A stretch of DNA of 44,634 nucleotides from Pseudomonadota bacterium (lineage in GTDB: Bacteria; Pseudomonadota; Gammaproteobacteria; Steroidobacterales; Steroidobacteraceae). The position numbers and the translations under genes are program-made. Shown here in pieces: positions 12,463 to 28,379 of this stretch. The notes beneath the pieces were generated by a model. That model was not told where the DNA came from. It did no database searches and saw only the letters and a list, made by a program, of their open reading frames with translations. The stretch lies in NCBI GenBank assembly GCA_021792555.1, contig JAJYUL010000015.1:1-44634 (forward strand), read 5' to 3'. How positions within the stretch are numbered: position 1 is the first letter of the stretch; every line of letters starts with the position of its first letter.

Positions 12463-12491
12463 TTGCATTGAAATCATGACATCGATATCAT
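12463..12491 (+). promoter_or_regulatory. Sigma70 promoter for the TonB-dependent receptor
   Basis: TTGCAT (12463-12468) and TATCAT (12486-12491) are separated by exactly 17 bp. Start of transcription would be near 12498, giving a leader of about 350 nt. The operator dyad begins 13 bp after the first base of the -35 and covers the -10. The trehalase promoter has the same arrangement. Confidence 0.7.
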
Positions 12492-12507
12492 TTGTTATCG
12501 ATGTCAT
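12476..12507. promoter_or_regulatory. Inverted-repeat operator, site 1 (TonB receptor)
   Basis: Perfect 12-bp arms ATGACATCGATA (12476-12487) and TATCGATGTCAT (12496-12507) flank an 8-bp spacer. Each arm is centred on ATCGAT and, with the spacer, forms a near-palindromic unit of the form TGACATCGATAWCA with a central CG, as in LacI-family operators. The two ATCGAT centres are 16 bp apart. A weaker half-site-like TGACATCGGTCA lies downstream at 12523-12534. The site overlaps the promoter -10, implying repression. The same arms recur at 28334-28366. The regulator's identity is inference. Confidence 0.8.
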
Positions 12508-12846
12508 CGACCCTGCGGTGGCTGACATCGGTCATTTCAGCGGTATTTCGGGGGGGGACCGCCGTGCTCTGTCTACTCGGGCCTGCATCGGCCGCAGCCG
12601 GATCGCCTTGCGCGACGGTGCGCCCGGCGCACGCCCGTGAACACAACGCACGGCGGGGCGGCAGGGGGATATATACCGATGTGCCCGCGGTACACGACCC
12701 GGGCGCGCTGCCAGCCGCAGCGCACGGACTGACCAGTCCTCAGGCGCCGATTCCACTCACGGAGACTCCTTTGTTGCCGACGCGCGCGTCAGCCGGCGCG
12801 GCAATCCCAATCTGACACGTCCAGCTTTCCGATAGGAGGATCTTGC
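12508..12846 (+). other. Long 5' leader of the TonB-dependent receptor
   Basis: If transcription starts near 12498, this stretch is transcribed but untranslated. It has a run of eight G at 12550-12557 and a good AGGAGG ribosome-binding site at 12833-12838 for the receptor. I recognise no riboswitch fold and no convincing gene. Confidence 0.45.
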
Positions 12847-15507
12847 ATGAGAGTGAACCAGAAGAAGGCGCCCCGCGGGGGCGTCGGTCCGGCCCGGCGG
12901 ATGGCGGCTGTGTCCGCCGTGCGCGGCGGACAGCGAACCGCCGCCACCAACAGCGTCGCGGCGGTCGTCGCCGGCATTCTCGGCGGCGCCGCGGGGCTCG
13001 CCGTCGCGCCGGCCTACGCCCAGAACGCATCCACGCCGCCGCCGCAACCGACGATCAACGCGGCCGCCATCCAGAGCTCACAGAACCTCCAGGAAGTCGT
13101 GGTGACCGCAACGGCGACCCACATCAAGCTGCTGAACGCGAGCTACAACATCGTGGCCGCCAACCGGCAGCTGATCCAGGAAGCCAACCCGCTGAGCTCG
13201 GCCGACATTCTCAAGCTCTCCCCCGGCATCTGGCCGGAGTCCACCGGCGGGCAGACCGGCGCCAACATCGAGGTGGCCGGCTTCCCGAGCGGCGGCGATT
13301 CCCCGTTCTTCACCAACATGATCGAGGGCATGCCGCTCTACGGCACCCCGTCCCTGTCCTTCATGGACTCGAGCTCGCTGTTCCGCCTCGACGACACCAT
13401 CCAGCGCATCGAAGTCGTGCAGGGCGGCCCCTCGGCGATCTTCGGACCCGGGCAGATGGGCGCCACCGCCAACTACATCCTGCGCACCGGCTCCTCGACC
13501 CCGCGCGGCGAGGTCAAGGTCACCTATGGCGACCAGGGCCTGTGGCGCACCGACATGTTCTACGGCTTCCCGATCGCCCACGGCTGGTACGGCAGCGTCG
13601 GCGGCTTCTACCGTGTGTCCAAGGGCGTGCGCGCCCCGCAGTTCCCGGCCGACAACGGCGGACAGTTCACCGCCACCCTGAAGCATGACCTGCACAACGG
13701 CACACTCCTGTTCTGGACGCGCGTGCTCGACGACAAGAACCAGTTCATGGCGCCGTTCCCGCTCATCGAGAACTCGAGCGGCTCGTACACCCCCTACCCG
13801 GGCTTCAATCCGCTCACCGGCACCTACGGCAGCTACGCCATCCAGAACGTGACCGTGCCGAATCCCGCCGGGGGCTTCGAGCAGGCCAATCTCGCCAACG
13901 GCCGCGGCGGCAAGCTGTACTTCCTCGGCAGCGACTACGACCAGAACATCGACGGCTGGCGGCTGCACAACGGCTTCCTGATCGACGGCGGCGGACTCGA
14001 CACCAACGCGCTGTTCTCCGGCACCAATCCGCGGCCGCTCAGCTACTATCTGTACGGCTGCCAGGTGGCCGCGCCGGCCGGCTTCTGCAACGGCACGACC
14101 GCAATCGATGCCAACAACCTCGGCCCGAACGGCCAGGGGCTCCCGCTGAACTATGACGTGTCGGCGGTGTACGCCGGCACCGGCAATCCCGTGCCGATGA
14201 GCCAGAGCGTGATCTCGCAGGGCTGGTGGTACATCCAGAAATCCCTGCAGAGCATCACCGACGAGTTCCGCGTCACTCACAGCCTCTTCAAGGGCGATGA
14301 TCTGACGCTCGGGGTGTATCTGGCCCGCTACAGCATGAACGACAACTGGTCGCTCGGTAACCAGATGCTCATGACCAATCAGAGCAATGCGACGCCGATC
14401 CTGCTCAGCTACGTGCAGGGCGGACAGACCTACAATCTCACGAGCTCGCAGGGCTTCGTCAACGACAACAACAATTACAACATCCTCGAGCACGGTGACG
14501 GGCAGAATATCGCCGGCTACTTCTCGGATCAGTGGCGGCACGGCCCCTGGCTGATCGACCTCGGGGCGCGCCTGGAGAACGTCAACATTCACCAGCGCAC
14601 GTGCAACACGACGCCGCAGATGCTCTCCGGCCCCTACAACCTGTGGGACAACGCGGTGCCGGTCTGCAACGGCACATGGAACTACGAGCATTATGTGCGC
14701 ACCCGGCCGACGTTCACCGGCGGCATCAACTACGACTTCTCGTCGCACATGAGCGCCTACATCCGTCTGAACAACGGCGTGCACTACGACGACTTCGACA
14801 ACGGCATCCGGGGCGCGAACGGACACTTCGGCCCGCTGGAAGTGATCCACAACTACGAAGTCGGCTTCAAGTATCAGAACCCGTGGCTGTTCGCGGACAT
14901 CAGCGGCTACGAGCGCATCTTCGACGGCCTGCAGACCACCGCCACCAATGCTCAGGGCGTCGGCATCCCGGGCGATATCGTCACCTTCGGCGCCATCACG
15001 CACGGCATCGACTTCAACGGCTACGTGCGGCCGTTCAAGCACGCCACCGTGCGCGTGGTGGGCGACTGGATGCAGGGCCACTACCGCAACGCCAATTCCT
15101 GTGCCCCGTACTTCACCATCAACGGAGCGCCGGCCTGCGCCAACATCAGCGGCGCGCCGCTGCAGCGCCAGCCGGACTTCCAGATCCGCGTCACCCCGAG
15201 CTACGCCATCCCGACGAGCTGGGGGGTGGTGCAGGCCTGGCTCAACTATGAGTACGTCGGCCAGCGCTACGAGGACCTGGCGGGCCTGCAGCCGCTCGGC
15301 ACCTACAGCGATATCGGCGCCGGCATCCTCGCCGAGGTGGGCGAGCACTGGCAGTTCGCCGTGCAGGGCACGAACCTGACGAACACCATTGCGCTCACCG
15401 AAGGCAATGCGCGTCAGGCAGGCCGGTCCCTCGGCGTGAACAACGTCCTGCTGGGACGGGCGCTGTTCGGCCGGGAGATCAACTTCAGCGCCGAGTACAA
15501 GTTCTAA
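12847..15507 (+). CDS. TonB-dependent outer-membrane receptor, probably for an alpha-glucoside
   Basis: 886 residues. A long signal region ends at AYA/QN near residue 58. A TonB-box-like EVVVTAT follows at 83-89, then a plug domain (LSSADILKLSPGIW, IQRIEVVQGGPSAIFGPGQMG) and a 22-strand-type beta-barrel ending INFSAEYKF with the terminal Phe needed for barrel assembly. Receptors of this kind use TonB energy to import a ligand across the outer membrane. Strong AGGAGG RBS at 12833. The ligand is inferred from regulation: its promoter carries the same operator as the trehalase and glycosidase operon at 28.3 kb. The plug has no Fe-siderophore hallmark, which fits a carbohydrate ligand. A strong terminator follows at 15521. 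Confidence 0.92.
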   Translation: MRVNQKKAPRGGVGPARRMAAVSAVRGGQRTAATNSVAAVVAGILGGAAGLAVAPAYAQNASTPPPQPTINAAAIQSSQNLQEVVVTATATHIKLLNASYNIVAANRQLIQEANPLSSADILKLSPGIWPESTGGQTGANIEVAGFPSGGDSPFFTNMIEGMPLYGTPSLSFMDSSSLFRLDDTIQRIEVVQGGPSAIFGPGQMGATANYILRTGSSTPRGEVKVTYGDQGLWRTDMFYGFPIAHGWYGSVGGFYRVSKGVRAPQFPADNGGQFTATLKHDLHNGTLLFWTRVLDDKNQFMAPFPLIENSSGSYTPYPGFNPLTGTYGSYAIQNVTVPNPAGGFEQANLANGRGGKLYFLGSDYDQNIDGWRLHNGFLIDGGGLDTNALFSGTNPRPLSYYLYGCQVAAPAGFCNGTTAIDANNLGPNGQGLPLNYDVSAVYAGTGNPVPMSQSVISQGWWYIQKSLQSITDEFRVTHSLFKGDDLTLGVYLARYSMNDNWSLGNQMLMTNQSNATPILLSYVQGGQTYNLTSSQGFVNDNNNYNILEHGDGQNIAGYFSDQWRHGPWLIDLGARLENVNIHQRTCNTTPQMLSGPYNLWDNAVPVCNGTWNYEHYVRTRPTFTGGINYDFSSHMSAYIRLNNGVHYDDFDNGIRGANGHFGPLEVIHNYEVGFKYQNPWLFADISGYERIFDGLQTTATNAQGVGIPGDIVTFGAITHGIDFNGYVRPFKHATVRVVGDWMQGHYRNANSCAPYFTINGAPACANISGAPLQRQPDFQIRVTPSYAIPTSWGVVQAWLNYEYVGQRYEDLAGLQPLGTYSDIGAGILAEVGEHWQFAVQGTNLTNTIALTEGNARQAGRSLGVNNVLLGRALFGREINFSAEYKF

Positions 15508-15520
15508 GTCCGTGCGTTGC

Positions 15521-15556
15521 AGCCCTCGCGCCCGGCCGGGCGCGAGGGCTTTTTCT
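15521..15556 (+). terminator. Intrinsic terminator after the TonB receptor
   Basis: A perfect 15-bp-armed GC-rich palindrome (15521-15535 with 15536-15550; the central bases form the loop) is followed by TTTTTCTT. It starts 13 bp after the receptor stop codon. Two more hairpins follow, at 15566-15583 and 15596-15614, before the next gene. Confidence 0.85.
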
Positions 15557-15657
15557 TGCCCGCCCGGTCCGCCGGCGCGGACCGCACGGGGTGCTGCACG
15601 GAGGTCTTCCGTGCGAGAATTCCACTCCATGTCGACCCCGTCCGAACCGGCATCCCG

Positions 15658-17487
15658 GTGAGCGCCCCGCCTGATCTGCTCGAGGAGATGCGCGCCATCG
15701 GCGCGCTGCTGCAGGCGGGCCAGCTCGGCCCGGCACGCGAGCGGCTCGAGCGCGTGCGCGAGGCTCATCCGACCTACGTCGAAGGTCTGCGCCTGCTGGC
15801 CGGCACGCGCATGGCGCTCGGCGAGACGGCGGCGGCCGAGGCGCTGCTGCGCCACGCACTCGAACTCGACCCCAACTGGCCGCCCACTCTGACCACCCTC
15901 GCGGAGCTGCTGCTCGCGGGCGGCCGGGGCGATGAGGCCGAGCCTCTGCTGCGCCGCGCGGCCACCGGCTCACCGGCCGACCCGCGCGCCGCGTGGGTGC
16001 TCGCGCGCCGCTACTGCGATTCGGGTCAACCCGCGCAGGCCCTCCAGATCGTCGCGCCGTTCTGCGCCGGCGAGCGCCTCGACGGAGCGCTCGCCGCGCA
16101 GCACGCCGCTACGCTGGTTGCGCTCGGGCGCGCCCAGGAGGCAGTCGCTTTCTACCAGGCCCGCAGCGAGCGCTCGCCCGATGATCCCGCCGCGGCGCAG
16201 GCGCTCGCGATCTCGCTCGGCGCCACGGGACGGGCAGGCGATGCCGGCCGGGTCGCAGAGCGGCTGCTCAAGCGGGGCATCAGGAGCGCGCCGCTCTGGC
16301 TCGCCTACGCGCGCGGCCTGATGGCCGAGGGAGCCGAGGCGCGCGCCGAGGAGGCGCTGCGCGAGTGCCTGCGGCTCGATCCGCGCCTCCTCGAGGCGCA
16401 CAAGCACCTCGCGCAGCAGGTCTGGGTGCGCAGCGGGGAGCTGCGCCTCGCCACGGCCTCGCTGGATGAGGCGCTCGCGAAGTTCGCCGAGGACGACGCG
16501 CTGTGGGGCGCCAAGGCGGCGATCCTGCAGGGCGCTGGCGACGCGCGCGGCGCGTACGCGTGTCTCGCGCCGCGCACCGAGCGGCCGCACGCCTCGCCGG
16601 CTCTGCTGGTGCGCGCCGGCCTGGCCGCGCTCGAGTTCGATCCGGACGCGGCGCTCACACTGGCGGAGAAGGCGCTGCATGCCGACCCCGGCAGCGCCCC
16701 GGCGCGCACGCTCCTCGCGGCCGCCGAGCTCGGCGTGGGGCGCGCTCACTCGGCGCTCGAGCACTGTGAGCAGCTGCTGCAGGCGGCACCGGACGATCAA
16801 TACCTGATCGCGCTGTACACCATCGCCCTGCGTCTGCTCGGGGATGCCCGCTACGGCTCCCTCTGCGACTACGCCAACCTGGTGCTGCCGCTGACGCTGA
16901 GCGCACCGCCCCCGTGGACGGATTTGCCGCACTTCCTCGCCGATCTGCGCGCGGCACTGAACCGGCTGCACGATCCCAACGGCCACGCGCTGCTGTTCCA
17001 GTCCCTGCGCCGGGGGACCGAGACGACGCAGGATCTCACGCGCAGCCGTGACCCGGCGATCCAGGCGCTGTTCGGCGCGTTCCGCGCGCCGATCGAGCGG
17101 TACCTGCAGCACATCGGCCGCGGTGACGATCCGCTGCGCCGCCGCAACGGCGCGGGCTGGCGCTTCAACGGCAGCTGGTCGGTGCGCCTGCGCGACCGGG
17201 GCTTTCACATGAGCCACGTGCACCCGCGCGGCTGGATCTCCTCGGCCTGCTACATCGAGCTGCCGGACTGCATGGCCGAGGGGCGCTCGGACCAGGGGAT
17301 TCTCTCGTTCGGTCAGCCCGGCATTCTCACCTCCCCGGCGCTCGAGCCCGAGCACGCCGTGCGGCCCGAGCCCGGCATGCTGGTGTTGTTTCCGTCGTAT
17401 TTCTGGCACGGCACGGTGCCGTTCGAGAGCCCGCAGGCGCGGCTCACCGTGGCCTTCGATGCGGTCCCGGGGCGCTCGGCGCCCTGA
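15658..17487 (+). CDS. TPR protein with C-terminal 2OG-Fe(II) oxygenase-like domain
   Basis: 609 residues from a GTG at 15658. An earlier in-frame start would lie inside the terminator, so it is rejected. Residues about 5-400 are an array of TPR-like helical pairs (repeated ALE.LL..ALELDP, EEALRECLRLDP, AEKALHADP patterns). The last 150 residues resemble the 2OG-FeII_Oxy_5 type: HMSHVHPRGWISSACYIELP supplies an HxH pair in place of the usual HxD, LVLFPSYFWHG the distal His, and RLTVAFD the Arg for 2-oxoglutarate. No signal peptide, so cytoplasmic. Such proteins recur beside TonB receptors for carbohydrates, but their substrate is unknown. The C-terminal domain is homologous by eye to the enzyme at 20510-21151. 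Confidence 0.8.
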   Translation: MSAPPDLLEEMRAIGALLQAGQLGPARERLERVREAHPTYVEGLRLLAGTRMALGETAAAEALLRHALELDPNWPPTLTTLAELLLAGGRGDEAEPLLRRAATGSPADPRAAWVLARRYCDSGQPAQALQIVAPFCAGERLDGALAAQHAATLVALGRAQEAVAFYQARSERSPDDPAAAQALAISLGATGRAGDAGRVAERLLKRGIRSAPLWLAYARGLMAEGAEARAEEALRECLRLDPRLLEAHKHLAQQVWVRSGELRLATASLDEALAKFAEDDALWGAKAAILQGAGDARGAYACLAPRTERPHASPALLVRAGLAALEFDPDAALTLAEKALHADPGSAPARTLLAAAELGVGRAHSALEHCEQLLQAAPDDQYLIALYTIALRLLGDARYGSLCDYANLVLPLTLSAPPPWTDLPHFLADLRAALNRLHDPNGHALLFQSLRRGTETTQDLTRSRDPAIQALFGAFRAPIERYLQHIGRGDDPLRRRNGAGWRFNGSWSVRLRDRGFHMSHVHPRGWISSACYIELPDCMAEGRSDQGILSFGQPGILTSPALEPEHAVRPEPGMLVLFPSYFWHGTVPFESPQARLTVAFDAVPGRSAP

Positions 17488-17511
17488 GCCCCTCCTCGCA
17501 CTCAGTCAGGC

Positions 17512-18408
17512 TCACAGACCGCGCGTGCAGGCCTCGACGAAGGCGCGCAGCTTGGGCTGGTTGCGGCTCGCGCGCGGGAAATAGATGAAGATGCCGTCCT
17601 GGGCGGGCGAGTACTTCTCCAGGACCGGCTCGAGGGCGCCCTGCTCGAGGTCCGAGGCGACACTCAGCGTTGCCGTGTAGATCAGCCCCATTCCCTGCCT
17701 GGCGAGCGCGCGCAGCAGCGCCCCGTCGTTGACCAGTACAGAGCCCGGCGGGTCGATGGCGACCGCCTGCCCCTTGCGCTCGAACTCCCAGCGGTAGATG
17801 TCGCCGACCTCCGGCCTGCGGTAGCGAATGCACTCGTGCCGCGAGATGTCCTCCGGGACCTTCGGCCGGCCATGCGCCGCGAAGTAACTCGGCGCCCCGA
17901 AGACGAGCCAGCGAAACAGCCGCGAGACCCGCACCGCCACCATGTCGCGGTCGATGTACTCCCCGATGCGCACGCCCGCATCGTAGCCGGCGCCCACGAG
18001 GCTTCCGTGATCATCCTCGACGGTGATCTCGACACGCACCGCCGGATACGCGCGGCGGAACACCGGCAGCACGGGCTCGATGACGTACGCGACCGCGAAG
18101 CGCTGCACCAGCAGCCGCAGCGTGCCGCTCGGCTGTGCGCCCATCTGCAGCAGCTCATCGAGCGACTCGGTGATGGCATCGGTGGCCGGTCCCACCCGGC
18201 CGAGCAGGCGCTCGCCCGCCTCGGTGAGCGCGACCGAGCGGGTCGTGCGGTGGAACAGCGGCAGCCCGAGCCGCCGCTCCAGCGCCTGCACGGCCTGGCT
18301 CACGGCCCCCGGGGTGACGCCAAGTCCGTTGGCCGCCTTGCGGAAACTGCCGTAGCGGGCGACGGCGAGGAATTCGGACAGACCGACGAAGGCGTCATTG
18401 CGCGGCAC
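17512..18408 (-). CDS. LysR-family transcriptional regulator
   Basis: 298 residues, standard LTTR size. The N-terminal winged HTH is clear: LSEFLAVARYGSFRKAANGLGVTPGAVSQAVQALERRLGLPLFHRTTRSVALTEAG in several consecutive family-typical segments (about 10-65), followed by a two-lobe substrate-binding domain (about 92-295). The start is a GTG at 18408. It diverges from an aldo-keto reductase gene over 124 bp, the usual LysR layout, so it probably controls the AKR-SDR pair and itself. A candidate T-N11-A site lies at 18438-18452. The effector is unknown, and no link to the surrounding sugar operator was seen. Confidence 0.93.
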   Translation of the reverse strand: MPRNDAFVGLSEFLAVARYGSFRKAANGLGVTPGAVSQAVQALERRLGLPLFHRTTRSVALTEAGERLLGRVGPATDAITESLDELLQMGAQPSGTLRLLVQRFAVAYVIEPVLPVFRRAYPAVRVEITVEDDHGSLVGAGYDAGVRIGEYIDRDMVAVRVSRLFRWLVFGAPSYFAAHGRPKVPEDISRHECIRYRRPEVGDIYRWEFERKGQAVAIDPPGSVLVNDGALLRALARQGMGLIYTATLSVASDLEQGALEPVLEKYSPAQDGIFIYFPRASRNQPKLRAFVEACTRGL

Positions 18409-18437
18409 GGGCCAGTCCCGGCAGAAGGGACCGACAA

Positions 18438-18452
18438 TTTAGTCTGACTGAA
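18438..18452. promoter_or_regulatory. Candidate LysR-type binding site
   Basis: TTTAGTC-T-GACTGAA is a 15-bp near-perfect palindrome with one arm mismatch and contains the T-N11-A pattern of LysR boxes. It lies between the divergent LysR and AKR genes, about 30 bp from the LysR start. Confidence 0.5.
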
Positions 18453-18532
18453 CAGCGCATGCAATGAAAACTCACTTACGCAGAACAAAGCAAGGGTCTA
18501 GGCTATACGCATCCCGCTTCAGGAGACCGTCC

Positions 18533-19579
18533 ATGCGCTACCGGACACTCGGCAACACCGGCCTGCTCGTCTCGGAAATCTGCCTCGGCACCATGACCTT
18601 CGGCGGCCGCGGGTTCTGGTCGGCGATCGGCGGTCTCGACCAGTCGCTCGCCGACCGCATCGTCGGGCGCGCGCTCGATGCCGGAGTGAACTTCATCGAC
18701 ACGGCCGACGTGTACTCCGAGGGCCTCTCCGAGGAGATCACCGGCCGCGCGATACGCAACAGCGCCCGCTCCCGCAGCGACCTGGTGCTCGCCACCAAGG
18801 TGTTCGGCCCGACCGGCCCGGGGGCGAACGACCGCGGCGCCTCGCGCGGCCACATCATGGATGGGATCAAGGCGAGCCTGAAGCGCCTCGGCACCGACTA
18901 CGTCGACCTCTATCAGATCCACGCGCTCGATCAGATCACTCCCCTGGAGGAAACCCTGCGCGCGCTCGAGGACCTGGTGCGCCAGGGCCACGTCCGCTAC
19001 GTGGGCGTGTCCAACTGGTCGGCCTGGGCGCTCATGAAGGCCCTCGGCATCGCCGAGCGGCACGGCTGGGTGCGGCCCGCGATGCTGCAGGCCTACTACT
19101 CCATCGCCGGGCGCGATCTCGAGCGCGAGATCGTGCCGCTGCTCGAGAGCGAGCGGGTCGGGCTGATGGTGTGGAGCCCGCTCGCCGGCGGCCTGCTCTC
19201 GGGGAAGTTCACCCGCAGCGGCGAGGGTCCCGCCGGCGCGCGCCGCGCCAGCTTCGATTTCCCGCCGGTGAACCGCGAGCGGCTGTTCGACTGCGTCGAT
19301 GTCATGCGCAAGATCGCCGAGGCCCGCGGCGTCTCGGTGGCGCGCATCGCGCTCGCCTACGTGCTCGCCAAGCCGTTCGTGACCTCCGTGATCATCGGTG
19401 CGAAGACCCTGGAGCAGCTCGAGGACAATCTCGCCGCCGCCGCCGTGCGGCTGAGCGGCGCGGAGCTTGCCGAGCTCGACGCCGTGAGCGCGCTGCCGCC
19501 GGAGTACCCGGGCTGGATGATCGAGTTTCAGCATCAGCGCTCGCGGCTGCCGGAAGACAAGCCGCAGGAGAAGAAGTAG
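18533..19579 (+). CDS. Aldo/keto reductase
   Basis: 348 residues from an ATG at 18533 with AGGAG at 18521. A (beta/alpha)8 NADPH-dependent reductase of the YajO/PdxI-like bacterial AKR type that reduces aldehydes or ketones. The catalytic tetrad is complete: Asp56 and Tyr61 in FIDTADVYSEG, Lys89 in LATKVFG, and His130 in YQIHALD. The cofactor site near the C-terminus, SVIIGAKTLEQLEDN, is family-typical. It is followed after 48 bp by an SDR gene on the same strand, so the two probably form an operon controlled by the divergent LysR. The substrate is unknown. Confidence 0.93.
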   Translation: MRYRTLGNTGLLVSEICLGTMTFGGRGFWSAIGGLDQSLADRIVGRALDAGVNFIDTADVYSEGLSEEITGRAIRNSARSRSDLVLATKVFGPTGPGANDRGASRGHIMDGIKASLKRLGTDYVDLYQIHALDQITPLEETLRALEDLVRQGHVRYVGVSNWSAWALMKALGIAERHGWVRPAMLQAYYSIAGRDLEREIVPLLESERVGLMVWSPLAGGLLSGKFTRSGEGPAGARRASFDFPPVNRERLFDCVDVMRKIAEARGVSVARIALAYVLAKPFVTSVIIGAKTLEQLEDNLAAAAVRLSGAELAELDAVSALPPEYPGWMIEFQHQRSRLPEDKPQEKK

Positions 19580-19627
19580 CACGCACTCCGGCCGGTGCGC
19601 CCCGCCAGAGCCCAAGGAGGAAACCCC

Positions 19628-20476
19628 ATGACTCACGCAACGAAAGTCTGGTTCATCACCGGCGTCTCGCGCGGCTTCGGCAAAGCGCTCGCCGAGACTC
19701 TGCTCGCAGAGGGCGCAACCGTGATCGGCACGACCCGCAGCGGATCGGCGCCGATCGACCCCGCGCAGGGCGCTCTCACGGTCCTGCCGCTCGAGATCAC
19801 CGATCCGCGCGCCGTGCGGCAGACCATCGATGCCGCGTACCGGCTCGGGCGGGTCGACGTCATCGTCAACAATGCCGGCTACGGACTGCTCAGCTCCGTG
19901 GAAGAGGCGACGGAAGCGGACATCGCCCACCTGTTCGAGGTCAACTTCCACGGCCCCCGCCGCGTGATCCAGGCGGCGCTGCCCCATCTGCGGGCCCAGC
20001 GCTCGGGACACATCGTCAACATCACCTCGATCGCCGGCCTGGCGCCGTCGGCCGGCTCCGGCTACTACGCGGCGGCGAAGATGGCGGTCGAAGGCATGTC
20101 GCAAAGCCTCGCCCAGGAGCTCGCGCCGCTCGGTATCCGCGTGACTCTCGTCGAGCCGGGCGCATTCCGCACCGACTTCCTCTCGGAGCATTCGATCCGC
20201 CGCAGCGGCGGGGCGGGCCTGGCCGATTACGCCGCCACCGCAGGGGCCGCCCGGGAGCGTCTCGCGGCGATGGCCGGCAAGCAGCCCGGGGATCCGGCGC
20301 GCGCGGCGGCGGCCATCATCGAGGCGGTCCGCTCCGATGCGCCGCCTCTGCACCTGGTGCTCGGGCCGGACGCCTATCAGCGCACCCGCGAGATGCTCCA
20401 GGCCTTCTCGGCAACGCTCGAGGCGTGGAAGCACGTGAGCCTCGGCACGGATTTCGGGCGCGGCTCGGCGAGCTGA
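19628..20476 (+). CDS. Short-chain dehydrogenase/reductase
   Basis: 282 residues from an ATG at 19628 with an AAGGAGG ribosome-binding site at 19614. A classical SDR: nucleotide-binding TGVSRGFG (11-18), NNAGYG near 83, catalytic Ser in NITSIAG, and the YxxxK pair in GYYAAAKMAVEG. The Rossmann fold and PGAFRTDF segment are typical of the family that oxidises or reduces secondary alcohols with NAD(P)H. It is downstream of the aldo-keto reductase and converges with the minus-strand 2OG oxygenase across 33 bp. Specific substrate unknown. Confidence 0.93.
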   Translation: MTHATKVWFITGVSRGFGKALAETLLAEGATVIGTTRSGSAPIDPAQGALTVLPLEITDPRAVRQTIDAAYRLGRVDVIVNNAGYGLLSSVEEATEADIAHLFEVNFHGPRRVIQAALPHLRAQRSGHIVNITSIAGLAPSAGSGYYAAAKMAVEGMSQSLAQELAPLGIRVTLVEPGAFRTDFLSEHSIRRSGGAGLADYAATAGAARERLAAMAGKQPGDPARAAAAIIEAVRSDAPPLHLVLGPDAYQRTREMLQAFSATLEAWKHVSLGTDFGRGSAS

Positions 20477-20509: not shown

Positions 20510-21151
20510 CTAGGCTGCCTCGCCGCCGCTCGCCGCATTGGCATTGAAGGCGATGCAGATGCGCGGCTCATCGCCGCAGTGCGGCTCGACGTAATGCTCC
20601 ATCCAGCACGGGAACAACACCAGCAGGCCCTCGCTCGGGGCAAGCTGGATGTCGCAGTGGCCGTTCGGCACCGGACCCTTGACCGCGCTGTGCAGCACGC
20701 CCGGCCGCGGATCGCGGAACACCAGCGCGCCGGAGCCTCTCGGCACCCTGAGGTAGAACGACCCCGACAAGAGCGATCCCTCGTGCATGTGCAGGAAGTT
20801 GAATCCCCCGCGGTCATGCATGTTGATCCAGGACTGGAGTGTGAAGCGCTGCTTGCCGAGCCCCATCTCACCGAGCGCCCGCTCGCACGAGAGCGCGACC
20901 GCCTGGCGCAGCGGGGCGAGAATCGGCTGCTCGAGCACCGTCATGCCCTGACTGTTCCAGCCGCTGCGATTGGTGCGCCCCGCGGGCGTGGGCTGCTCGG
21001 CGCGCAACGCCTGCACCCACGCGACCCACTCGGCGAGCCGCGGCTGCAGCGCCACGAGGCGCGCCTGCCAGATCCGGGTCGGGAACAGATCGTAGGACTC
21101 GAGCGCGGCAGCGCCGCCGCCTGAGGCACCGCCCGGCGAGGTGGAACTCAC
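20510..21151 (-). CDS. 2OG-Fe(II) oxygenase, last gene of the glycosidase operon
   Basis: 213 residues from a GTG at 21151 whose GTGA overlaps the GH31 stop codon, so translation is probably coupled. The protein matches the 2OG-FeII_Oxy_5/TIGR02466 type: SWINMHDRGGFNFLHMHEGSLLSGSFYLRVP carries the HxH iron-binding pair (in separate segments, no HxD), then LVFRDPRP, then LLVLFPCWMEHYVEP with the distal His and ERICIAFN-like RICIAFN with the 2-oxoglutarate Arg. No signal peptide, so cytoplasmic, unlike the four exported hydrolases. Family members are hydroxylases of unknown substrate that often sit in TonB-receptor carbohydrate loci. Coupling to a GH31 lipoprotein gene is notable. Confidence 0.85.
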   Translation of the reverse strand: MSSTSPGGASGGGAAALESYDLFPTRIWQARLVALQPRLAEWVAWVQALRAEQPTPAGRTNRSGWNSQGMTVLEQPILAPLRQAVALSCERALGEMGLGKQRFTLQSWINMHDRGGFNFLHMHEGSLLSGSFYLRVPRGSGALVFRDPRPGVLHSAVKGPVPNGHCDIQLAPSEGLLVLFPCWMEHYVEPHCGDEPRICIAFNANAASGGEAA

Positions 21152-23928
21152 CGCCACGTGATCACCACCTCGTTGCGGATGCTGTGCGCCGGAACACGAA
21201 TGCGCGCCAGGCGGCGCGCGGCGTCCCAGCGGACCGCCTGCACGCTGCGTCCATCGATGGTGAGCGAAGAGGGCCGGTGCCGCGTATGGATGCCGAGCGC
21301 ATAGCCGCGCACCGCCAGCTGGCCCTGATACGTCCCGCGCGTCGGCCCGATGATCAGCCGGTGCCGCCCGCCCCGCGTGCGGTACACGATGGGCGTCAGC
21401 GCATACTGGCCCTTGCGGTAGTCGAACGACACGCCGTCGTCCTGGTACAGATCGAACCGCCCGCTGCCCGACCCGAACACCTGCAGCACGAGCGGATCGA
21501 GCGGCTTGGCATCGGAGTAGGCGCTCGGCTCCTGCTCGGGAATCACCGCGCCGGCGCGCACGAACACCGGAGTGTCGCTCACCCGGTAGCGCGCGGTGTA
21601 GGTCTTGCCGCCCGCGTAGTGCTTGCCCGTGAAGAACTCGAGCCACTTGCCCGGGGGCAGATAGACCGCGCGCACCCCGCTCTTGTCCAACACCGGCGCG
21701 ACGAGCAGGTCAGCGCCGAGGAAATACTCGTGCGGGTGACGGTAGGCCTGCGGACCCTGCACGCCCTCCAGATACAGCGGCCGCATGATCGGCAGGGCCC
21801 GCCGGTGCGCGACCCACGCGTAGGTGTAGAGATACGGAATGAGTTCGGTATGCAGCGTGAAGTACCGGCGCATCAGCGACACGCCGCGCGACCCGTAGGT
21901 CCACGGCATGCGCAGGTTGCCCTCGAACGGGTTCTCGTGCGCGCTGTGCATGCGCAGCAGCGGGCCGAAGGCGCCGAACTCGATCCAGCGCGCGTAGAGC
22001 GGGAAAGGAATCTTGCCGCCGTGGAACCCGCCGATGTCATGGCTGATGTAATCGATCAGCTCATTGCCGCCCCGGGCCGAGAAGGCGACCTCATACGCCA
22101 GCACCGGCCACTCGGAGTAGGTGTCGCCGGTGAAGAACCCCGGATAGCGCTCGCTGCCCCAGCCGCCGTAGCGCGCCAGGATGAACGCGCGCCCGCCCGT
22201 CTCGCGCTCGGTGGCGCGATAGTACAGCTCGTTGGTCCACAGCTGCGGATTCAGCCCCGGCATGCGCGCCGCGCCGCTGCCGCCGTCGACCCACCAGAAG
22301 TTCACGCCCTCGTGCACGAGCGGCGCATGCAGGTCGCGCATGAACACGCTCGCCTGCAGGTGGTTGGCGAGATTGAAGCGGATGGGCGGCGGCGGCGGGA
22401 CGTTGCGGATCGCGGTCGGCCCGAATAGCAGCCCGCCGCCGCGCGCTCCGGCCTGCACGCGCAAGGCGATCTCGTTGACCTTGCCGGGCGCGAGCGTGTT
22501 CGAGATGTCCGCGTAGGTAAGCCGCTGCGGCCACTGCACGTGGCTGTGCGGCACCCGCTTGCCGTTGACGAACAGCTGATAGGAGTGCTCCACGCCGCCG
22601 AGATACAGATACAAATGCCGCGGCATGGTGGCGGGCACCTGCACGGTGGCGCGGTACCAGGCGGTGCCGTTGCTCCCGCGCAGCAGCTGCGAGCGCCATG
22701 TGAATCCCACGCGCACCGGCCGCCAGCGCACCGCGCTCGCCTCGCCCGGCGTGTACGGGCCGGCGCTGAACTGCCACAGCCCGGACAGGTCGAGATCGAA
22801 GGTCGGCTGCGGCGGCAGCGGCCGGCCGAGATCGTGTAGCACCTCGGGCGCATGGCTGTCGTGGTAGGACAGGCCCGATTCCTCGGTGTTGGCGTAGCCG
22901 GGGTGGTCGTTCAGCGCGAGCTTGAAGCCATGGCCGTGCAGCCAGCGCATGAAGCGGCGCGGATGGGGGATGAGCGGACTCCAGTCGTAGCCGCCGTCCC
23001 AGCCATAGTTGTGCCAGCCGAAATCGAGCACCAGCGTGTCGACCGGAATGTGCTCGCTGCGCAGCCGCTCGAGCTCGCGTTTGATGTGCCGCTCGCCGTA
23101 GCGCGCGAAGGCCGGATTGCGCACCACGGGGGAGTCGGGGAAGTACTCGAAGTTCAGGTCCGTCACCATCGGCCCGAGCACGTAGCGCGGGATCATGGGC
23201 ACGGGCCCGCAGAGCTCGGCGTACTCGCGCAGCGCGCGCCGGTAATGCGCGCCGTAGGCGAACAGATACCAGTCCTGATCTTGGGCCGGCGCGCGCGGCT
23301 CGATCCAGGTGTGCTCGGCATTCCACACCGGCGTGCCGCTGTCGTTGATCAGCCCGTAGCCCGAGCGGCTGAGCAGCCCCGGCTGCGCGGGCGCGAGCGG
23401 CACATCAATCCCCGGAATGATGTCGTGCACGGGGCTCTCGAGGTCGGAGTTGCCGGGCGGCAGATTGGCCCGGCTCACGTTGTCGAGCGAGTAGGTCAGG
23501 CCGCCGAGGTTCAGCGGATCGCGCTGACCCGGGCGCCAGCTGTGCGCCGCGCCCGGCGCGCCCTTCCAGGTGACCTCGAGATTGCCCGGGGTGAAGCGGC
23601 CCGAATGCAGCCGGTAACGCACCGTCAGCGCATCGCTCGCGGCGAACATCCACCCGCCCTGCTGCCAGAGGCGCACCGTCACGCTCGGCCAGTGCCGCTT
23701 CTCGATGACCACCGAGGGGGCGTTGACGAACCGGCCGTCCGGCGAGTACTCCATGCGCACCAGCGAGGGGGTGAGGAATTCGAAGCGAGCCTTGCCGGCC
23801 ACGACCGCCGAGCCGTGCTGCACCGGTCCGCGCGCGCATGCCGCAAGCAGCAGTGCGGCCATGCCGGCCGCCGCGATGCCGAGGCTCCGCAGGCCGCCCA
23901 GAGTCGTTCGTTGCGCCGCTGCGCTCAT
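21148..23928 (-). CDS. GH31 alpha-glucosidase-like lipoprotein with inserted beta-sandwich domain
   Basis: 926 residues. A lipoprotein signal ends at the lipobox LAAC with Cys31, so it is probably lipid-anchored in the envelope. GH31 motifs: LDFGWHNYGWDGG near 301-313, FWWVDGG at 544-550 with the likely nucleophile Asp548, GDTYSEW at 601-607 with the likely acid/base Asp602, and SHDIGGF at 629-635. Between about 377 and 515 an extra domain (LSGLWQFSAGP, AWYRATVQVP, YLYLGGVEHSYQLFVNGKRV) resembles the sugar-binding sandwich of GH2 enzymes, which is unusual inside a GH31 barrel. The ATG at 23928 overlaps the GH65 stop (ATGA) and has GGAGGG upstream. It likely releases glucose from alpha-linked oligosaccharides. 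Confidence 0.9.
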   Translation of the reverse strand: MSAAAQRTTLGGLRSLGIAAAGMAALLLAACARGPVQHGSAVVAGKARFEFLTPSLVRMEYSPDGRFVNAPSVVIEKRHWPSVTVRLWQQGGWMFAASDALTVRYRLHSGRFTPGNLEVTWKGAPGAAHSWRPGQRDPLNLGGLTYSLDNVSRANLPPGNSDLESPVHDIIPGIDVPLAPAQPGLLSRSGYGLINDSGTPVWNAEHTWIEPRAPAQDQDWYLFAYGAHYRRALREYAELCGPVPMIPRYVLGPMVTDLNFEYFPDSPVVRNPAFARYGERHIKRELERLRSEHIPVDTLVLDFGWHNYGWDGGYDWSPLIPHPRRFMRWLHGHGFKLALNDHPGYANTEESGLSYHDSHAPEVLHDLGRPLPPQPTFDLDLSGLWQFSAGPYTPGEASAVRWRPVRVGFTWRSQLLRGSNGTAWYRATVQVPATMPRHLYLYLGGVEHSYQLFVNGKRVPHSHVQWPQRLTYADISNTLAPGKVNEIALRVQAGARGGGLLFGPTAIRNVPPPPPIRFNLANHLQASVFMRDLHAPLVHEGVNFWWVDGGSGAARMPGLNPQLWTNELYYRATERETGGRAFILARYGGWGSERYPGFFTGDTYSEWPVLAYEVAFSARGGNELIDYISHDIGGFHGGKIPFPLYARWIEFGAFGPLLRMHSAHENPFEGNLRMPWTYGSRGVSLMRRYFTLHTELIPYLYTYAWVAHRRALPIMRPLYLEGVQGPQAYRHPHEYFLGADLLVAPVLDKSGVRAVYLPPGKWLEFFTGKHYAGGKTYTARYRVSDTPVFVRAGAVIPEQEPSAYSDAKPLDPLVLQVFGSGSGRFDLYQDDGVSFDYRKGQYALTPIVYRTRGGRHRLIIGPTRGTYQGQLAVRGYALGIHTRHRPSSLTIDGRSVQAVRWDAARRLARIRVPAHSIRNEVVITWR

Positions 23929-26204
23929 AGCACCCTCCGTTTCAGCCGCACCGCACCGTTCGCGCCGCGCGTGAGAGTGATATCGAGGCGCCGGCCCCGA
24001 AAACTCACCTCACGCAGCGTCACGGATCGCCAGCCGCGCGGCAAAACCGGAGTGTACGCGTCCACGAGCCCTCTGGGGCGAATGCGCAGGCCCGTTAGGC
24101 CGTAGATCAGACTCTGCAGATAGCCGCCCGAGCCCGTCAGGAACGGCCCGACGTTATTGGTCGCCGTCTCGGTGCGCACGTTGAAAGGCGGTTTGAGCGT
24201 GCCGCCGGTCAGGTAGAGCGCCAGACGCCGTCCAGCCTCGGCGCCGCGACCGACCTCGGCGGCGGCGGCCACGCACGGCAGAATCCCCATGCTCACCGCA
24301 GCCACGCGGCTCGAGGGAATGGGCCTCACCGCGTAGTCGTAATCGCCCCGGGCGAGAGCTGCGGACAGGGGCAGATCGAGTGCGGGCAGGAACAGCAGCG
24401 GCAGCGGGCCGCCGCCGAAGGCCGTGCTGCCGGCCGCGGCGGCGGCGCGGGAGAGCTGATACGGCAGATGATGACCTCCGCCCGGAGCGAGCGGAATGTC
24501 CATCGCGCCGGCAATGCGGCGCCAGCGCGGATCGGCGCGCTTGCCGAGCACCCGCGCGGCAGAGGTGGCGATGCGCAGCGCCTTGGCCGCCACCATGTTC
24601 GTGAAGGTGTCGTTCGGTATGTCGCCGTGCGCCTCGGACACCGACGTCACGTGCAGGATGCCGTAGCGGCCGGTGCGCGCGTCATAGCTCGCACGGCTCG
24701 CAAAGAAACGGGCCACCGCGCGGATCACCGGCCAGCCGTGCGCACGCAGCCATGCTCGGTCGAGCGTGGCCAGGTAGTACTGCCATTGCGCGATCGCAAT
24801 CTCCGCGTTGACGTGGATCTCGCTTTCGGAGAGCGCGTACGCCGAGTACGGCGTCTGATCGCTGCCGTTGTACGGATCGGACTCCCAGGGATACATCGCC
24901 CCGGCGTAGCCATGCGCGCGGGCGCGCGCCTCGGCCGCCGCCAGCGTGCGCTCGCGGAACGCGAGCAGCGAACGGGCGCGCCGCGGATGCAGCAGCAGCA
25001 ACGCCGGATACACCCAGGTGTCACTGTCCCAGAACACGTGCCCGGCATAGCAGAGCGTCAGCCCGCAGGGGCCGACCGCCCAGCCCGTATCCGGCGTGGT
25101 ATTCGCCAACAGGTAGTAAAGCGCCGAGTGCGCCACCTGCTGGGCCTTGGGGTCACCGTCGATCACGATGTCCGCCCGCCACAGCCCGTGCCACGCGGCG
25201 CGCTGCTGCGCCCACAGCGCGGCAAAGCCCTGCGCGCGCGCGGCGCGCACGCGGCGCAGATCGCGGGCCGCGCTCCCGCCCCATCCTGCACGCGAGACGG
25301 CCGCGAACTTGGTGAACGTGTACGTCCGTCCCCGCTCGACCTGCAGGCTCACCTCGAGCGCGGGCCCTTGGCGGCCGTGCCGCACCCGCACCGCCGCGCC
25401 GGCGGGCAGCGCAACGGCGGCCGCCATGGCGACAGGCAGACTGTTGGCCGCTTTGCCCGCGAGCCACACCGTGCGCGCCGCAGCCGACCCGCCGCCGCAG
25501 CGTACGGCGACATAGCCCGGATACCACAGCGCGGCCCGATCAGGCGTGGCCGGCGGCCGGGGCGTGAGCGTCAGGCCGTGCGCGGCCAGCGCGCGATTGA
25601 CCTGCGGGCCGTCGAGGCGCGCGAGCGCGAAGCGCGGCGCATGCTCCGGCCAGACCGTCAGAGGGAAGGACAGTCTGACCCGTCCGCGGTATCGCGGAGT
25701 GATGCTCAGACGAATCACGCCGAGATGCGGTTCGGCCTCGCTGAGGAAGCTCACGACCCGCACCGCCGTCACCCGCGCATGATCGACATAACGGTAGCGT
25801 GTCGTCAGCGTCGCATCGCGCAGATCGAGCGTCTGCCGGTAGCGGCGGAAATGCGCCGCGCTGAGCGGCGCGCGGTTCAGCCACGCGGCCCCAGGGGGAT
25901 CAGGATTGAAATCGATCGCATTCCAGCCGGGCAGCAGCGCCGGACGGGCGATGTCCCCCGGCGTGCGGTCCATCAGCCCGACCATGAAGGCCTGCGTCGC
26001 AGCGGTGCCGCGCCGGGCGGTGAGTGTGGCGAGGTAACCGTTGCCGAGCATGCCCGGGAAGTAGCTCGCCAGCCCGGCGAACCCCACGCTCAGGCGGAAC
26101 CCGCCCGCGGCCCATGCGCTGCGGCCGCTCCCCGCGCAGAGCAGCGCCGCACAGACGGTTGCGCTCAGGCGGACGGGCCGCGGCCACCGGTCCGCGCGCG
26201 CCAT
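23925..26204 (-). CDS. Exported GH65-family glycosidase or phosphorylase
   Basis: 759 residues from an ATG at 26204, two bases after the previous stop. The N-terminus is a signal peptide ending near AWA/AGG (33). An N-terminal sandwich domain (about 35-300) is followed by an (alpha/alpha)6 barrel with FWDSDTWVYPALLLLHP at 391-407 and YPWESDP at 439-445. Glu524 in SVSEAHGD is the probable catalytic acid by position, followed by NDTFTNMVAAKAL. The pattern fits the GH65 hydrolase branch (acid trehalase/PGGHG-like). Because export puts it in the periplasm, hydrolysis is more plausible than phosphorolysis. It probably acts on a glucose disaccharide such as trehalose or kojibiose; this is inference. 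Confidence 0.85.
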   Translation of the reverse strand: MARADRWPRPVRLSATVCAALLCAGSGRSAWAAGGFRLSVGFAGLASYFPGMLGNGYLATLTARRGTAATQAFMVGLMDRTPGDIARPALLPGWNAIDFNPDPPGAAWLNRAPLSAAHFRRYRQTLDLRDATLTTRYRYVDHARVTAVRVVSFLSEAEPHLGVIRLSITPRYRGRVRLSFPLTVWPEHAPRFALARLDGPQVNRALAAHGLTLTPRPPATPDRAALWYPGYVAVRCGGGSAAARTVWLAGKAANSLPVAMAAAVALPAGAAVRVRHGRQGPALEVSLQVERGRTYTFTKFAAVSRAGWGGSAARDLRRVRAARAQGFAALWAQQRAAWHGLWRADIVIDGDPKAQQVAHSALYYLLANTTPDTGWAVGPCGLTLCYAGHVFWDSDTWVYPALLLLHPRRARSLLAFRERTLAAAEARARAHGYAGAMYPWESDPYNGSDQTPYSAYALSESEIHVNAEIAIAQWQYYLATLDRAWLRAHGWPVIRAVARFFASRASYDARTGRYGILHVTSVSEAHGDIPNDTFTNMVAAKALRIATSAARVLGKRADPRWRRIAGAMDIPLAPGGGHHLPYQLSRAAAAAGSTAFGGGPLPLLFLPALDLPLSAALARGDYDYAVRPIPSSRVAAVSMGILPCVAAAAEVGRGAEAGRRLALYLTGGTLKPPFNVRTETATNNVGPFLTGSGGYLQSLIYGLTGLRIRPRGLVDAYTPVLPRGWRSVTLREVSFRGRRLDITLTRGANGAVRLKRRVL

Positions 26205-26206
26205 GG

Positions 26207-28276
26207 CTAGCGGGCTGCGGCCCTTGACCCGGCCATTCCGGCCGGCGGTTTGATCGCCAGATACACGGTGCTCCACAGCTGCGCCGCATCGGCCTCCGAG
26301 GCATCCGAGCTCGCCGAGCCGAACGGACGGATGTGGTAATGGCCCCCCTGGTAGGTCCACGACCACAGCTCGGTGTTGGCCATCGAGCGGGTCGCGTGGA
26401 TCACCCGCCACAGCGTGCGCTCGGCCTCGCGCAGCTCGGCACGCACCGCGGGCGGCAGATCGGCCCGGCGCAGCTGCCGTGCGAGGCCGGCGGCGAGCAG
26501 CGCCTGCTGCCAGGACCATACGACGGTGCCGTGGTAGGCGTGACGCGTGAGCTCCTTCTGCAGAGTCGGCGGCGCGTAGGCGGGATTGGCGACCACCAGG
26601 CCGGCCCCCGTGATCAAGCCCGCGGGGAACGGGCGCATCAGCGCGCGAACCAGCCGGGCGAGATCCTGCGGGGCGGGCTTGCCGAACAGCAGCAGGTAGC
26701 CGACGTCCGATTGCATCACCGGGATCGGGCGGCCTGCGCGGCTCAGCGAGAGCGCCGGGAACTTCACCGGGCCGCGGCCGAGCGCATTGACCGCCGGCTG
26801 CGCGGGGATCCGATCGAGCGCGGCGTAGCGGCGCACGTCGCGCAGCGCTACCGCATGCGGCACCGTGACGGCGAACAGCTGCGGCGCGCGCCGGCTCCAG
26901 ACCTGCGCCATGTGAGCCGCTTGCGCAAACCAGGGCCGCTCTGCGGCCGTCAGATACGGAGAGAGCAGACCGCTCGCGTACAGCCGCGCGATCGCATCGA
27001 GCGCAGCCGGCACGAGCGCGGCGTTGACGTCGTAGGGATAGTATCCGCCGCCGAGACCGGTGTTGCTGTCGCGCCAGTCGCCGACCGGAACACCGGGCTT
27101 CAGCCCGATCAGATGCCCCACACGCGGATCGCGCGCGAACGGCGCGGCGCTCTGGAGCACGAAGCGCAGATTCTTCACGAGCGCCGCGCCGTGGCTGCCC
27201 TGGCGCTGCTCGGGGCCGCCGACGGGAGCGGCGAGGAACGCCGCCGCGTGCGCGCGCTCGCGCGCGCTCAACAGCCAGGCGGCCGCATCGGGCGCGAGCA
27301 TGTAGTTCTCGTCGATCATCAGGTAGGTGTAGCTCGGCGCGGCCGAGCGCACTCCGCGCTTGAGGTTCTCGAGCACGGCCTCCTCGCCGATGTCCTCCTC
27401 GTGCGCCACCTGCCCGTGCGGCGAGAGCCGGGCGAGCACCGAGTCGAGCGCGTCATCGATGGCGCCCGCGGTGAGCGCCGGCATGAGCAGCCGCACGCTC
27501 ATGAGCGTGTCGCGGCCGAAATAGGTGTCGAAGCGCCACGAGCCGGCGAGAAATTTCTGTCGGTACGCGAGGAACGTCAGTGTCTCGCGCGCCGCGCGGC
27601 TGCCCTGGTGGGGGTGGCGCAGCAGCTGCCGCCCGGAGAGGGGCGTCAGCGGCGGCTCGCCCGTCAGGCCCGTCACGCGCAGCCGGATGATCCCGGCGCG
27701 ATCGGCGAGAATGCTCGTGCCGTGCACGCGGCCGCGCAGCACCTGCAGCGTCAGCCGGTAGGCGGCGCCGCCATCGAGGCGCTCGCGTGACCAGGCGATC
27801 TCACGCGGACCGCTGCGCGGGGCCGTCGCGATGCCCGCGGGCAGCCGGCCGAGCGAGCCGTAATCGCGCAGCACCCGGATGCTCGAGAGCACCGCCTGGT
27901 GCACGCGCAGCGACGGATCGCCTGTGAGCTGCACCACGGCGGACAGGCCGTAGAGCGGACGGCCGTGCGCATCGTGCGAGCGGACCGGGTGCAGCCGCCC
28001 GAGCAGACGCCAGCGTGCCCAGTGCGGCTCGGAGGCAAACCAGACCCCCACTCCGCTGTCGCCGGCGGGAAACGCGACGATGAGACGCGGATGGGGTCCG
28101 GAGCGCAGCACCAGGTCGCCCGCGACCGGGCCCTGGCGCAGGAACGCGTTGAAGAAACGGCCCTGACGGACGGTAAAGGCCAAGGGGCGCGCGGCCGCAC
28201 CCGCCGGCGGGCAGGACAGGGCGGCACACAGCAACAGCGCAACCGAGCCGCTCCAGGCGGAGAGTCGAATTCTCAT
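26207..28276 (-). CDS. Exported glycogen-debranching-like six-hairpin glycosidase
   Basis: 689 residues from an ATG at 28276 with AGAGGA eight bases upstream; a GTG at 28282 is an alternative. A signal peptide (about 1-28) points to the periplasm. An N-terminal sandwich region (about 30-225) precedes an (alpha/alpha)6 barrel with WRFDTYFGRDTLMS at 247-260, HEEDIGEEA at 292-300, and VGDWRDSNTGLGGGYYPYDVN at 398-418. These resemble amylo-alpha-1,6-glucosidase/GH133-type motifs, but I cannot assign catalytic residues firmly. It is first in a four-gene operon read from the divergent operator region and is separated from GH65 by only two bases. Function as a debranching alpha-glucosidase is inferred. 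Confidence 0.78.
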   Translation of the reverse strand: MRIRLSAWSGSVALLLCAALSCPPAGAAARPLAFTVRQGRFFNAFLRQGPVAGDLVLRSGPHPRLIVAFPAGDSGVGVWFASEPHWARWRLLGRLHPVRSHDAHGRPLYGLSAVVQLTGDPSLRVHQAVLSSIRVLRDYGSLGRLPAGIATAPRSGPREIAWSRERLDGGAAYRLTLQVLRGRVHGTSILADRAGIIRLRVTGLTGEPPLTPLSGRQLLRHPHQGSRAARETLTFLAYRQKFLAGSWRFDTYFGRDTLMSVRLLMPALTAGAIDDALDSVLARLSPHGQVAHEEDIGEEAVLENLKRGVRSAAPSYTYLMIDENYMLAPDAAAWLLSARERAHAAAFLAAPVGGPEQRQGSHGAALVKNLRFVLQSAAPFARDPRVGHLIGLKPGVPVGDWRDSNTGLGGGYYPYDVNAALVPAALDAIARLYASGLLSPYLTAAERPWFAQAAHMAQVWSRRAPQLFAVTVPHAVALRDVRRYAALDRIPAQPAVNALGRGPVKFPALSLSRAGRPIPVMQSDVGYLLLFGKPAPQDLARLVRALMRPFPAGLITGAGLVVANPAYAPPTLQKELTRHAYHGTVVWSWQQALLAAGLARQLRRADLPPAVRAELREAERTLWRVIHATRSMANTELWSWTYQGGHYHIRPFGSASSDASEADAAQLWSTVYLAIKPPAGMAGSRAAAR

Positions 28277-28320
28277 GGGCACATTCCTCTGACAGCCTGC
28301 CGCCGGGCCGTTGGATCGTA

Positions 28321-28349
28321 TTGCAAGGCTTTCATGACATCGATATCAT
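28321..28349 (+). promoter_or_regulatory. Sigma70 promoter for the trehalase gene
   Basis: TTGCAA (28321-28326) and TATCAT (28344-28349) with a 17-bp spacer. The operator begins 13 bp after the first base of the -35, exactly as in the TonB-receptor promoter. Predicted start near 28356, leaving a leader of about 230 nt before the ATG at 28589. Confidence 0.7.
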
Positions 28350-28366
28350 GATGGTATCGATGTCAT
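28334..28366. promoter_or_regulatory. Inverted-repeat operator, site 2 (glycosidase operon and trehalase)
   Basis: Perfect 12-bp arms ATGACATCGATA (28334-28345) and TATCGATGTCAT (28355-28366), identical to site 1, flank a 9-bp spacer; a C/G pair extends each arm to 13 bp. It lies in the 312-bp gap between divergent genes and overlaps the -10 elements of both promoters. The two ATCGAT centres are 17 bp apart, against 16 in site 1. Confidence 0.85.
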
Positions 28367-28379
28367 GCCGGCGTCGCAA
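28351..28379 (-). promoter_or_regulatory. Sigma70 promoter for the glycosidase operon
   Basis: Read on the minus strand: TTGCGA (28379-28374), 17 bp, TACCAT (28356-28351). Its -35 also starts 13 bp before the operator arm, mirroring the plus-strand promoter. Predicted start near 28344, about 68 nt before the ATG at 28276. Confidence 0.65.

Follow-up and report, generated by a model that had tools for sequence, protein, structure and literature searches.

In the LacI-family survey PMC4052901, in the part of it used here, the spacings of neighbouring sites peak at 13, 22 and 32 bp, and the closest of these is described as hard to reconcile with structures; tandem sites precede approximately 20% of the regulated operons, and autoregulation is common. 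Release from the DNA by a sugar is the usual behaviour of the family and is shown, in the sections of PMC1790865 on which we draw, for the repressor SuxR of Xanthomonas, the suxR mutant being derepressed. For bidirectional promoters, the portion of Warman et al. 2026 (PMC12825309) cited here gives 18 as the commonest distance between the two starts, with 10 and 23 also common. Here we analyse two inverted-repeat dyads in a stretch of 44,634 nucleotides (the window; contig JAJYUL010000015.1 of assembly GCA_021792555.1, Steroidobacteraceae), one ahead of a TonB-dependent receptor gene and one in the divergent control region (divergon) between a glycosidase cluster and a trehalase gene. Operators, promoter geometry, regulator and regulon content are all read from sequence comparison, and on this evidence we have high confidence that the dyads are paired operators of LacI34, a LacI-family protein encoded on another contig, and that the receptor, the glycosidase cluster, the trehalase and the lacI34-MFS locus form one regulon.

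Paired operators and promoter geometry

Both dyads have the 12-bp arms ATGACATCGATA and TATCGATGTCAT, at 12476-12507 with a spacer of 8 bp and at 28334-28366 with a spacer of 9 bp. There are no mismatches, exactly as described in an earlier note on this DNA that was made from its letters only, and such arm pairs were found in none of 100 dinucleotide shuffles of the window. A genome-wide scan, which the earlier note had proposed as a check, finds the tandem pattern TGACATCGATRN{4,22}YATCGATGTCA twice in the 3.5-Mb genome, both times within the window. The two arms of a dyad belong to separate 14-16-bp palindromes, similar to ATGAYATCGATRTCAT, of which each arm forms one half, and each dyad is therefore read as two adjacent operators: the left palindrome reads ATGACATCGATATCAT in both dyads, the right one reads TTGTTATCGATGTCAT at the receptor and ATGGTATCGATGTCAT at the divergon. 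The palindrome centres are 16 bp apart at the TonB receptor site and 17 bp apart at the glycosidase/trehalase divergon. TGACATCGATATCA and its partner palindromes are even with CG at the centre, which fits the LacI-family operator as defined in the part of PMC4052901 used here. The predicted promoters and operators are located as follows (GHx is the first gene of the glycosidase cluster):

12463..12491, plus strand: receptor promoter; -35 TTGCAT at 12463-12468, 17-bp spacer, -10 TATCAT at 12486-12491
12476..12491, unstranded: operator 1a, palindrome ATGACATCGATATCAT; includes the receptor -10
12492..12507, unstranded: operator 1b, TTGTTATCGATGTCAT; placed at the predicted start, 16 bp from 1a (centre to centre)
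28321..28349, plus strand: trehalase-facing promoter; -35 TTGCAA at 28321-28326, 17-bp spacer, -10 TATCAT at 28344-28349
28334..28349, unstranded: operator 2a, palindrome ATGACATCGATATCAT
28351..28366, unstranded: operator 2b, ATGGTATCGATGTCAT; centre 17 bp from that of 2a
28351..28379, minus strand: GHx-facing promoter; -35 TTGCGA at 28379-28374, 17-bp spacer, -10 TACCAT at 28356-28351

One operator per promoter region had been proposed before: the shared dyad stands, the single long dyad gives way to two palindromic operators at each site. The identity of the outer arms at both sites would fit a single long operator per dyad, its 12-bp arms contacted as a unit by a single dimer, be it of a LacI, a GntR or another regulator, but we consider this very unlikely. 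The palindromes are separate units because relatives vary the spacing between them and because a lone palindrome precedes lacI34. Five receptor promoters of relatives retain both palindromes, the -35 and the -10 with 14 extra bp between the palindromes, and among tandem dyads centre spacings of 14, 15, 16, 17, 21, 23, 24 and 30 bp occur (21 bp in Massilia-type loci, 14 bp in Nitrospirillum). The inner half-sites are conserved in the dyad sites of relatives. A second receptor paralogue, approximately 40% identical, has its own 29-bp tandem dyad with centres 15 bp apart in three congeners (L173, L181 and L229, from G255, G142 and G122). In two further congeners (L293 and L294 at 4370, from G306 and G271) one more near-complete palindrome lies at the receptor promoter, at a distance of 31 bp from the second, making three in all.

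In all three predicted promoters, found at the positions given earlier and with the same 17-bp spacer, the -35 starts 13 bp ahead of the arm. Promoters were compared in a set of sites that were collected via the dyad pattern, the window included; dyad conservation in this set is thus given by the selection, -35 conservation is not. A -35 TTG at 17-bp spacing is present in 17/17 receptor sites of the 30-bp type, in 5/5 of the 44-bp type and, at the divergon sites, in 13/13 on the plus and 11/13 on the minus strand, in line with the two-sided control proposed for the second site. The first site had been described as one-sided after loss of the opposite -35: it is one-sided, but a loss is not supported, because the receptor sites of this set are all one-sided (opposite -35 TTG at 17-bp spacing in 0/17). 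At the divergon, the mean -35 match is highest with the 17-bp spacer for either strand (4.08 and 4.15 of 6). Among the receptor sites a 12-bp spacer outscores it (3.88 vs 3.24 of 6), owing to a second TTG word that these sites conserve. The sites of the second receptor have a -35 at 17 bp in 0/3 cases, with the best match at 18 bp, and the Massilia group has it in 8/14 on the receptor-distal strand and in 1/14 on the other strand. The two -10s of the divergon face each other 1 bp apart, and a repressor pair bound there would close both directions at once.

The interval between dyad and receptor gene contains a conserved leader element at 12539-12572, GCGGTATTTC-G6..8-ACCGCC[A/G]TG, with a GCGGT/ACCGC stem, a G-run loop and then a start-like codon; it is found at most receptor sites of genomes with LacI34 and is partly altered in some. 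A conserved leader protein in this interval was considered and rejected, as a comparison of 14 leaders shows that neither the sequence nor the length nor the frame of the short open reading frame (ORF) is constant.

LacI34 as the candidate regulator

The regulator was expected outside the window, and it is very probably the product of lacI34, a gene that this genome has on a different contig (G000:C34:7190-8200; G000 is the genome that contains the window). The predicted protein has an N-terminal LacI helix-turn-helix (HTH) and a sugar-binding domain (PF00356, PF13377 and PF00532 above cut-offs); no named NCBIfam equivalog (TreR, MalI, GntR, CytR etc.) is above cut-off, the best model being NF052440 with 155.7 bits vs 400.

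With up to two mismatches, the 14-mer core TGAYATCGATRTCA occurs at 29 places in the genome: 19 are inside coding-looking frames (judged by GC3, the GC content at third codon positions), four are the window's own, four are weak intergenic sites with two mismatches (L323, L326, L333 and L054), one falls where a GH10 gene encodes its signal peptide and one lies between lacI34 and a divergent MFS gene. Many copies unrelated to sugar genes, which according to the earlier note would speak against a regulon, are not found when the places are sorted in this way. The note had also suggested looking for a LacI-type gene near further copies, and lacI34 is such a gene: the core at C34:8220-8233 (one mismatch) is approximately 20 bp ahead of it and is the only one of the 29 less than 1 kb from a LacI HTH match. 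The GH10 place (C10:181119, one mismatch), which has another LacI-like site just upstream, was rejected as a regulon member. Sites similar to TGATACCGCTACCA / TGATATCGCTACCA are found near a GH10 xylanase gene (L046:9000-9130) and at L047 (G000 C10 and C51), which suggests a second LacI regulon in this genome.

LacI34 orthologues are present in 21 of the 58 genomes of the genus, its own included; 19 of the others have 85-98% identity and one has 62%. The tandem dyad is found in 20/21 genomes with LacI34 vs 4/37 genomes without (Fisher p 1e-10, a value that ignores kinship). Receptor and GHx loci were fetched by protein alone, to avoid choosing them by their dyad. The dyad precedes the receptor gene in 14/14 loci from genomes with LacI34 vs 0/16 from genomes without (30 loci out of 57 match rows in 46 genomes; L315, without LacI34, has a match with two mismatches inside the receptor gene that was scored as no dyad), and it precedes GHx in 13/14 vs 2/15 loci (29 of 30 loci, as L285 without upstream region was omitted; nine further matches had no locus). 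In the congener G319, the receptor gene and the gene for a LacI34 homologue with 61% identity are transcribed divergently, and the interval that separates them contains a degenerate tandem site. Divergent orientation of lacI34 and the MFS gene is seen in 20/20 loci, and 15/20 orthologues are preceded by the core with at most one mismatch.

A scan of 84,980 species genomes returned 86 tandem-dyad stretches, which were sorted by hand: 38 are in the genus and 48 outside. Of the latter, 21 adjoin a LacI34-group LacI and come from Oxalobacteraceae (Massilia-type), Nitrospirillum and sphingomonads, and these 21 include a receptor homologue in 16 and a GH65 homologue in 12 cases (8 kb fetched); one further outside stretch is an Azospirillum receptor locus. 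Dyads are found beside homologous genes in three proteobacterial classes. Altogether, a LacI homologue is present in 28/86 stretches vs 0/18 control loci (a small control of 75 kb from one genome); genus stretches have none because the gene sits elsewhere. In a tree of 78 LacIs, from which rows with less than 280 aa (L096, L194, L197) were omitted, the 20 genus sequences and 19 dyad-adjacent sequences form one clade with a support of 100/100 that includes no other LacI of G000. The recognition-helix word ITVSRA is common to the LacI34 clade and absent from the six other LacIs of G000. Two LacIs that are only 28-29% identical to LacI34, from a Chloroflexota metagenome-assembled genome (L225) and from Ottowia (L172), have ITVSRA too and a tandem dyad in their stretch; the shared word is perhaps convergent.

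Several observations weigh against LacI34 as the common regulator. Its gene is unlinked to the window, and the operator ahead of it is degraded in 5/20 orthologues (2, 3, 3, 5 and 5 mismatches). G161 has LacI34, yet its GHx, on another contig, has no dyad. Conversely, dyads are present in four genomes in which LacI34 was not found, G304, G277, G298 and G313 (91, 90, 88 and 62% complete), two of which (G298 and G304) provide the GHx loci with dyad counted above. Outside the genus, seven stretches adjoin other LacIs and in 19 no LacI homologue was found, and two congeners (L137, L142) have the core upstream of another LacI type (28-29% identical). A single exact 14-mer is present in 38/274 genomes of the order outside the genus, and a single core copy is therefore not diagnostic.

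Another LacI of this genome could be the main regulator instead: there are eight LacI HTH matches, and some genomes have other LacI types near similar sites. We judge this decidedly improbable, as lacI34 is the only one of seven complete LacI genes to be preceded, within 900 nt upstream, by a core with at most one mismatch (for the C27 gene, approximately 400 nt were searchable), and as co-occurrence, tree and the G319 locus all favour LacI34.

The predicted regulon and its mode of action

The genes concerned are the following:

12847..15507, plus strand: TonB-dependent receptor, 886 aa (Pfam Plug and TonB barrel)
15517..17487, plus strand: TPR / 2OG-Fe(II) oxygenase-like gene (PF13759), behind the receptor gene and perhaps cotranscribed with it
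20510..21646, minus strand: 2OG-Fe(II) oxygenase-like ORF (PF13759), last gene of the minus-strand cluster
21148..23928, minus strand: GH31 glycosidase
23925..26210, minus strand: GH65 glycosidase, nearest to kojibiose hydrolases but under the NCBIfam cut-off; start approximate
26207..28276, minus strand: GHx, signal-peptide-like start
28553..30214, plus strand: trehalase; ORF start GTG at 28553, a later ATG is likely

The minus-strand cluster has the order GHx, GH65, GH31 and oxygenase-like ORF with overlapping gene ends; the true start of this last ORF is probably further in, because it overlaps GH31. The two PF13759 genes, the first of which has TPR repeats, flank the sugar genes. The trehalase gene is followed by HlyD and RND efflux genes. 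GHx is present in 37/58 genomes of the genus and matches no Pfam or NCBIfam model; a weak sequence match to a debranching enzyme (E 0.0046) and a low-confidence structure model (mean pLDDT 66.9) with cellobionic acid phosphorylase as best Foldseek match (E 6e-4, TM 0.33, too weak for a family name) suggest that GHx may be a glycosidase of the (alpha/alpha)-barrel type. Signal peptides were assigned by visual inspection alone.

The predicted members are thus genes of sugar uptake and degradation: TonB receptor, GH65, GH31, trehalase and MFS. The earlier note had proposed that one repressor, of LacI type, joins TonB receptor, glycosidase operon and trehalase in a regulon, and the comparative evidence supports this; the three promoters stand, and the lacI34-MFS locus is to be added.

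Repression, enzyme export, substrate and inducer we infer from this arrangement. The operators overlap all three predicted -10s, as anticipated, and a repressor over -10 and start implies repression. Without inducer, a LacI34 dimer on each palindrome would cover the -10s and block RNA polymerase at the three promoters; from its single, weaker operator LacI34 would hold down its own expression and perhaps also that of the divergent MFS gene. An alpha-glucoside or its product in the cytoplasm would cause the repressor to release the DNA, upon which receptor, exported glycosidases, trehalase and inner-membrane transporter would rise together: the receptor would bring the oligosaccharide to the periplasm, the enzymes would cut it and the MFS transporter would import the product. 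As the inducer class, the enzymes point to alpha-glucobioses, e.g. trehalose or kojibiose.

LacI34 may act otherwise, for example as an activator, or repress only some of the three promoters, and operator 1b is indeed downstream of the receptor -10; we regard this as very unlikely, as the overlap of operators with every predicted -10 argues for steric repression. That the dyads are not regulatory at all, being mobile-element ends, RNA hairpins or terminators, can practically be dismissed: near-identical inverted repeats at two places could derive from a mobile element, but throughout the genus the dyads remain with the same promoters whereas the flanking DNA varies, they adjoin homologous genes in different classes, and an RNA element was rejected as there is no Rfam match at gathering thresholds within 12200-28700 and the predicted starts are inside the dyads.

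Centre spacings of 14, 15, 16 and 17 bp are out of helical phase; pairs elsewhere in the clade are spaced by 21 to 24 and by 30 bp. Tentatively, the clade might keep spacings that are specific to each promoter. The paired dimers might then hold the DNA between them from almost opposite sides at -10 and start, like a clamp, which for close sites is the mode that PMC4052901, in the part used here, could not square with structures, and the spacing might be set by promoter layout, such as the adjacent -10s of promoters facing each other, rather than by same-face contacts; we offer this as a possibility that is more doubtful than not.

Comparison with described sugar regulons

In the open-licence literature searched here we found neither TGACATCGATGTCA nor a description of a LacI34-type regulon. 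The kind of system, a LacI sugar regulon, is already known: the palindromes are even with a central CG, close to promoters and ahead of sugar genes, as in the regulons of PMC4052901, in the part considered here. Less usual are the unlinked regulator and operator spacings of 14-30 bp within one clade; the 16 and 17 bp of this genome differ from the peaks of that survey, and so does the distance of the regulator gene from receptor and glycosidase genes.

Among described systems, the Mal and Tre pathways of Shewanella (PMC2996990, as far as used here) are similar in that sites of a predicted LacI-type MalR precede a TonB-type receptor operon and an operon for a glucosidase and a glucose transporter, and in that secreted glucosidases act first and glucose import follows; the gene sets differ from those found here. 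The sux locus of Xanthomonas, a carbohydrate utilisation locus containing a TonB-dependent receptor (CUT), likewise combines TonB-dependent receptor, MFS transporter, sugar enzyme and a LacI/GalR repressor, SuxR (PMC1790865, in the sections cited). It is one compact locus for sucrose, whereas here the genes are in three separate loci and encode alpha-glucosidases and a trehalase: regulator and MFS are on contig C34 and the rest is on C22 in two places, unlike the single locus by which CUT loci are defined. Pseudoduganella flava has receptor, divergent LacI, a GH65 phosphorylase-like enzyme, beta-phosphoglucomutase and an MFS transporter (52% identical to the MFS beside LacI34) in one locus, and loci of this type (L183) resemble a CUT-like arrangement in compact form for the LacI34 clade. 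The simplest history would be that a compact locus came apart in this genus and that the operators stayed.

The divergon resembles bidirectional promoters in that the same DNA carries two promoters pointing towards each other. Its predicted starts are approximately 12 bp apart and its -10s are adjacent, each in its own operator, and not shared; in the part of PMC12825309 cited here, the divergent starts flank a shared -10 or fall inside it.

For a genus that is uncultured, a guess made from one sequence has led to a named candidate regulator with a regulon of three loci, and to a natural series of LacI operator pairs, all belonging to a single regulator clade, whose spacings run from 14 to 30 bp. 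How two LacI sites that lie close together can be occupied at once is left open in the part of PMC4052901 on which we draw; as the LacI34 clade has named members in Massilia, Pseudoduganella and Nitrospirillum, some of them cultured, it makes this question directly testable.

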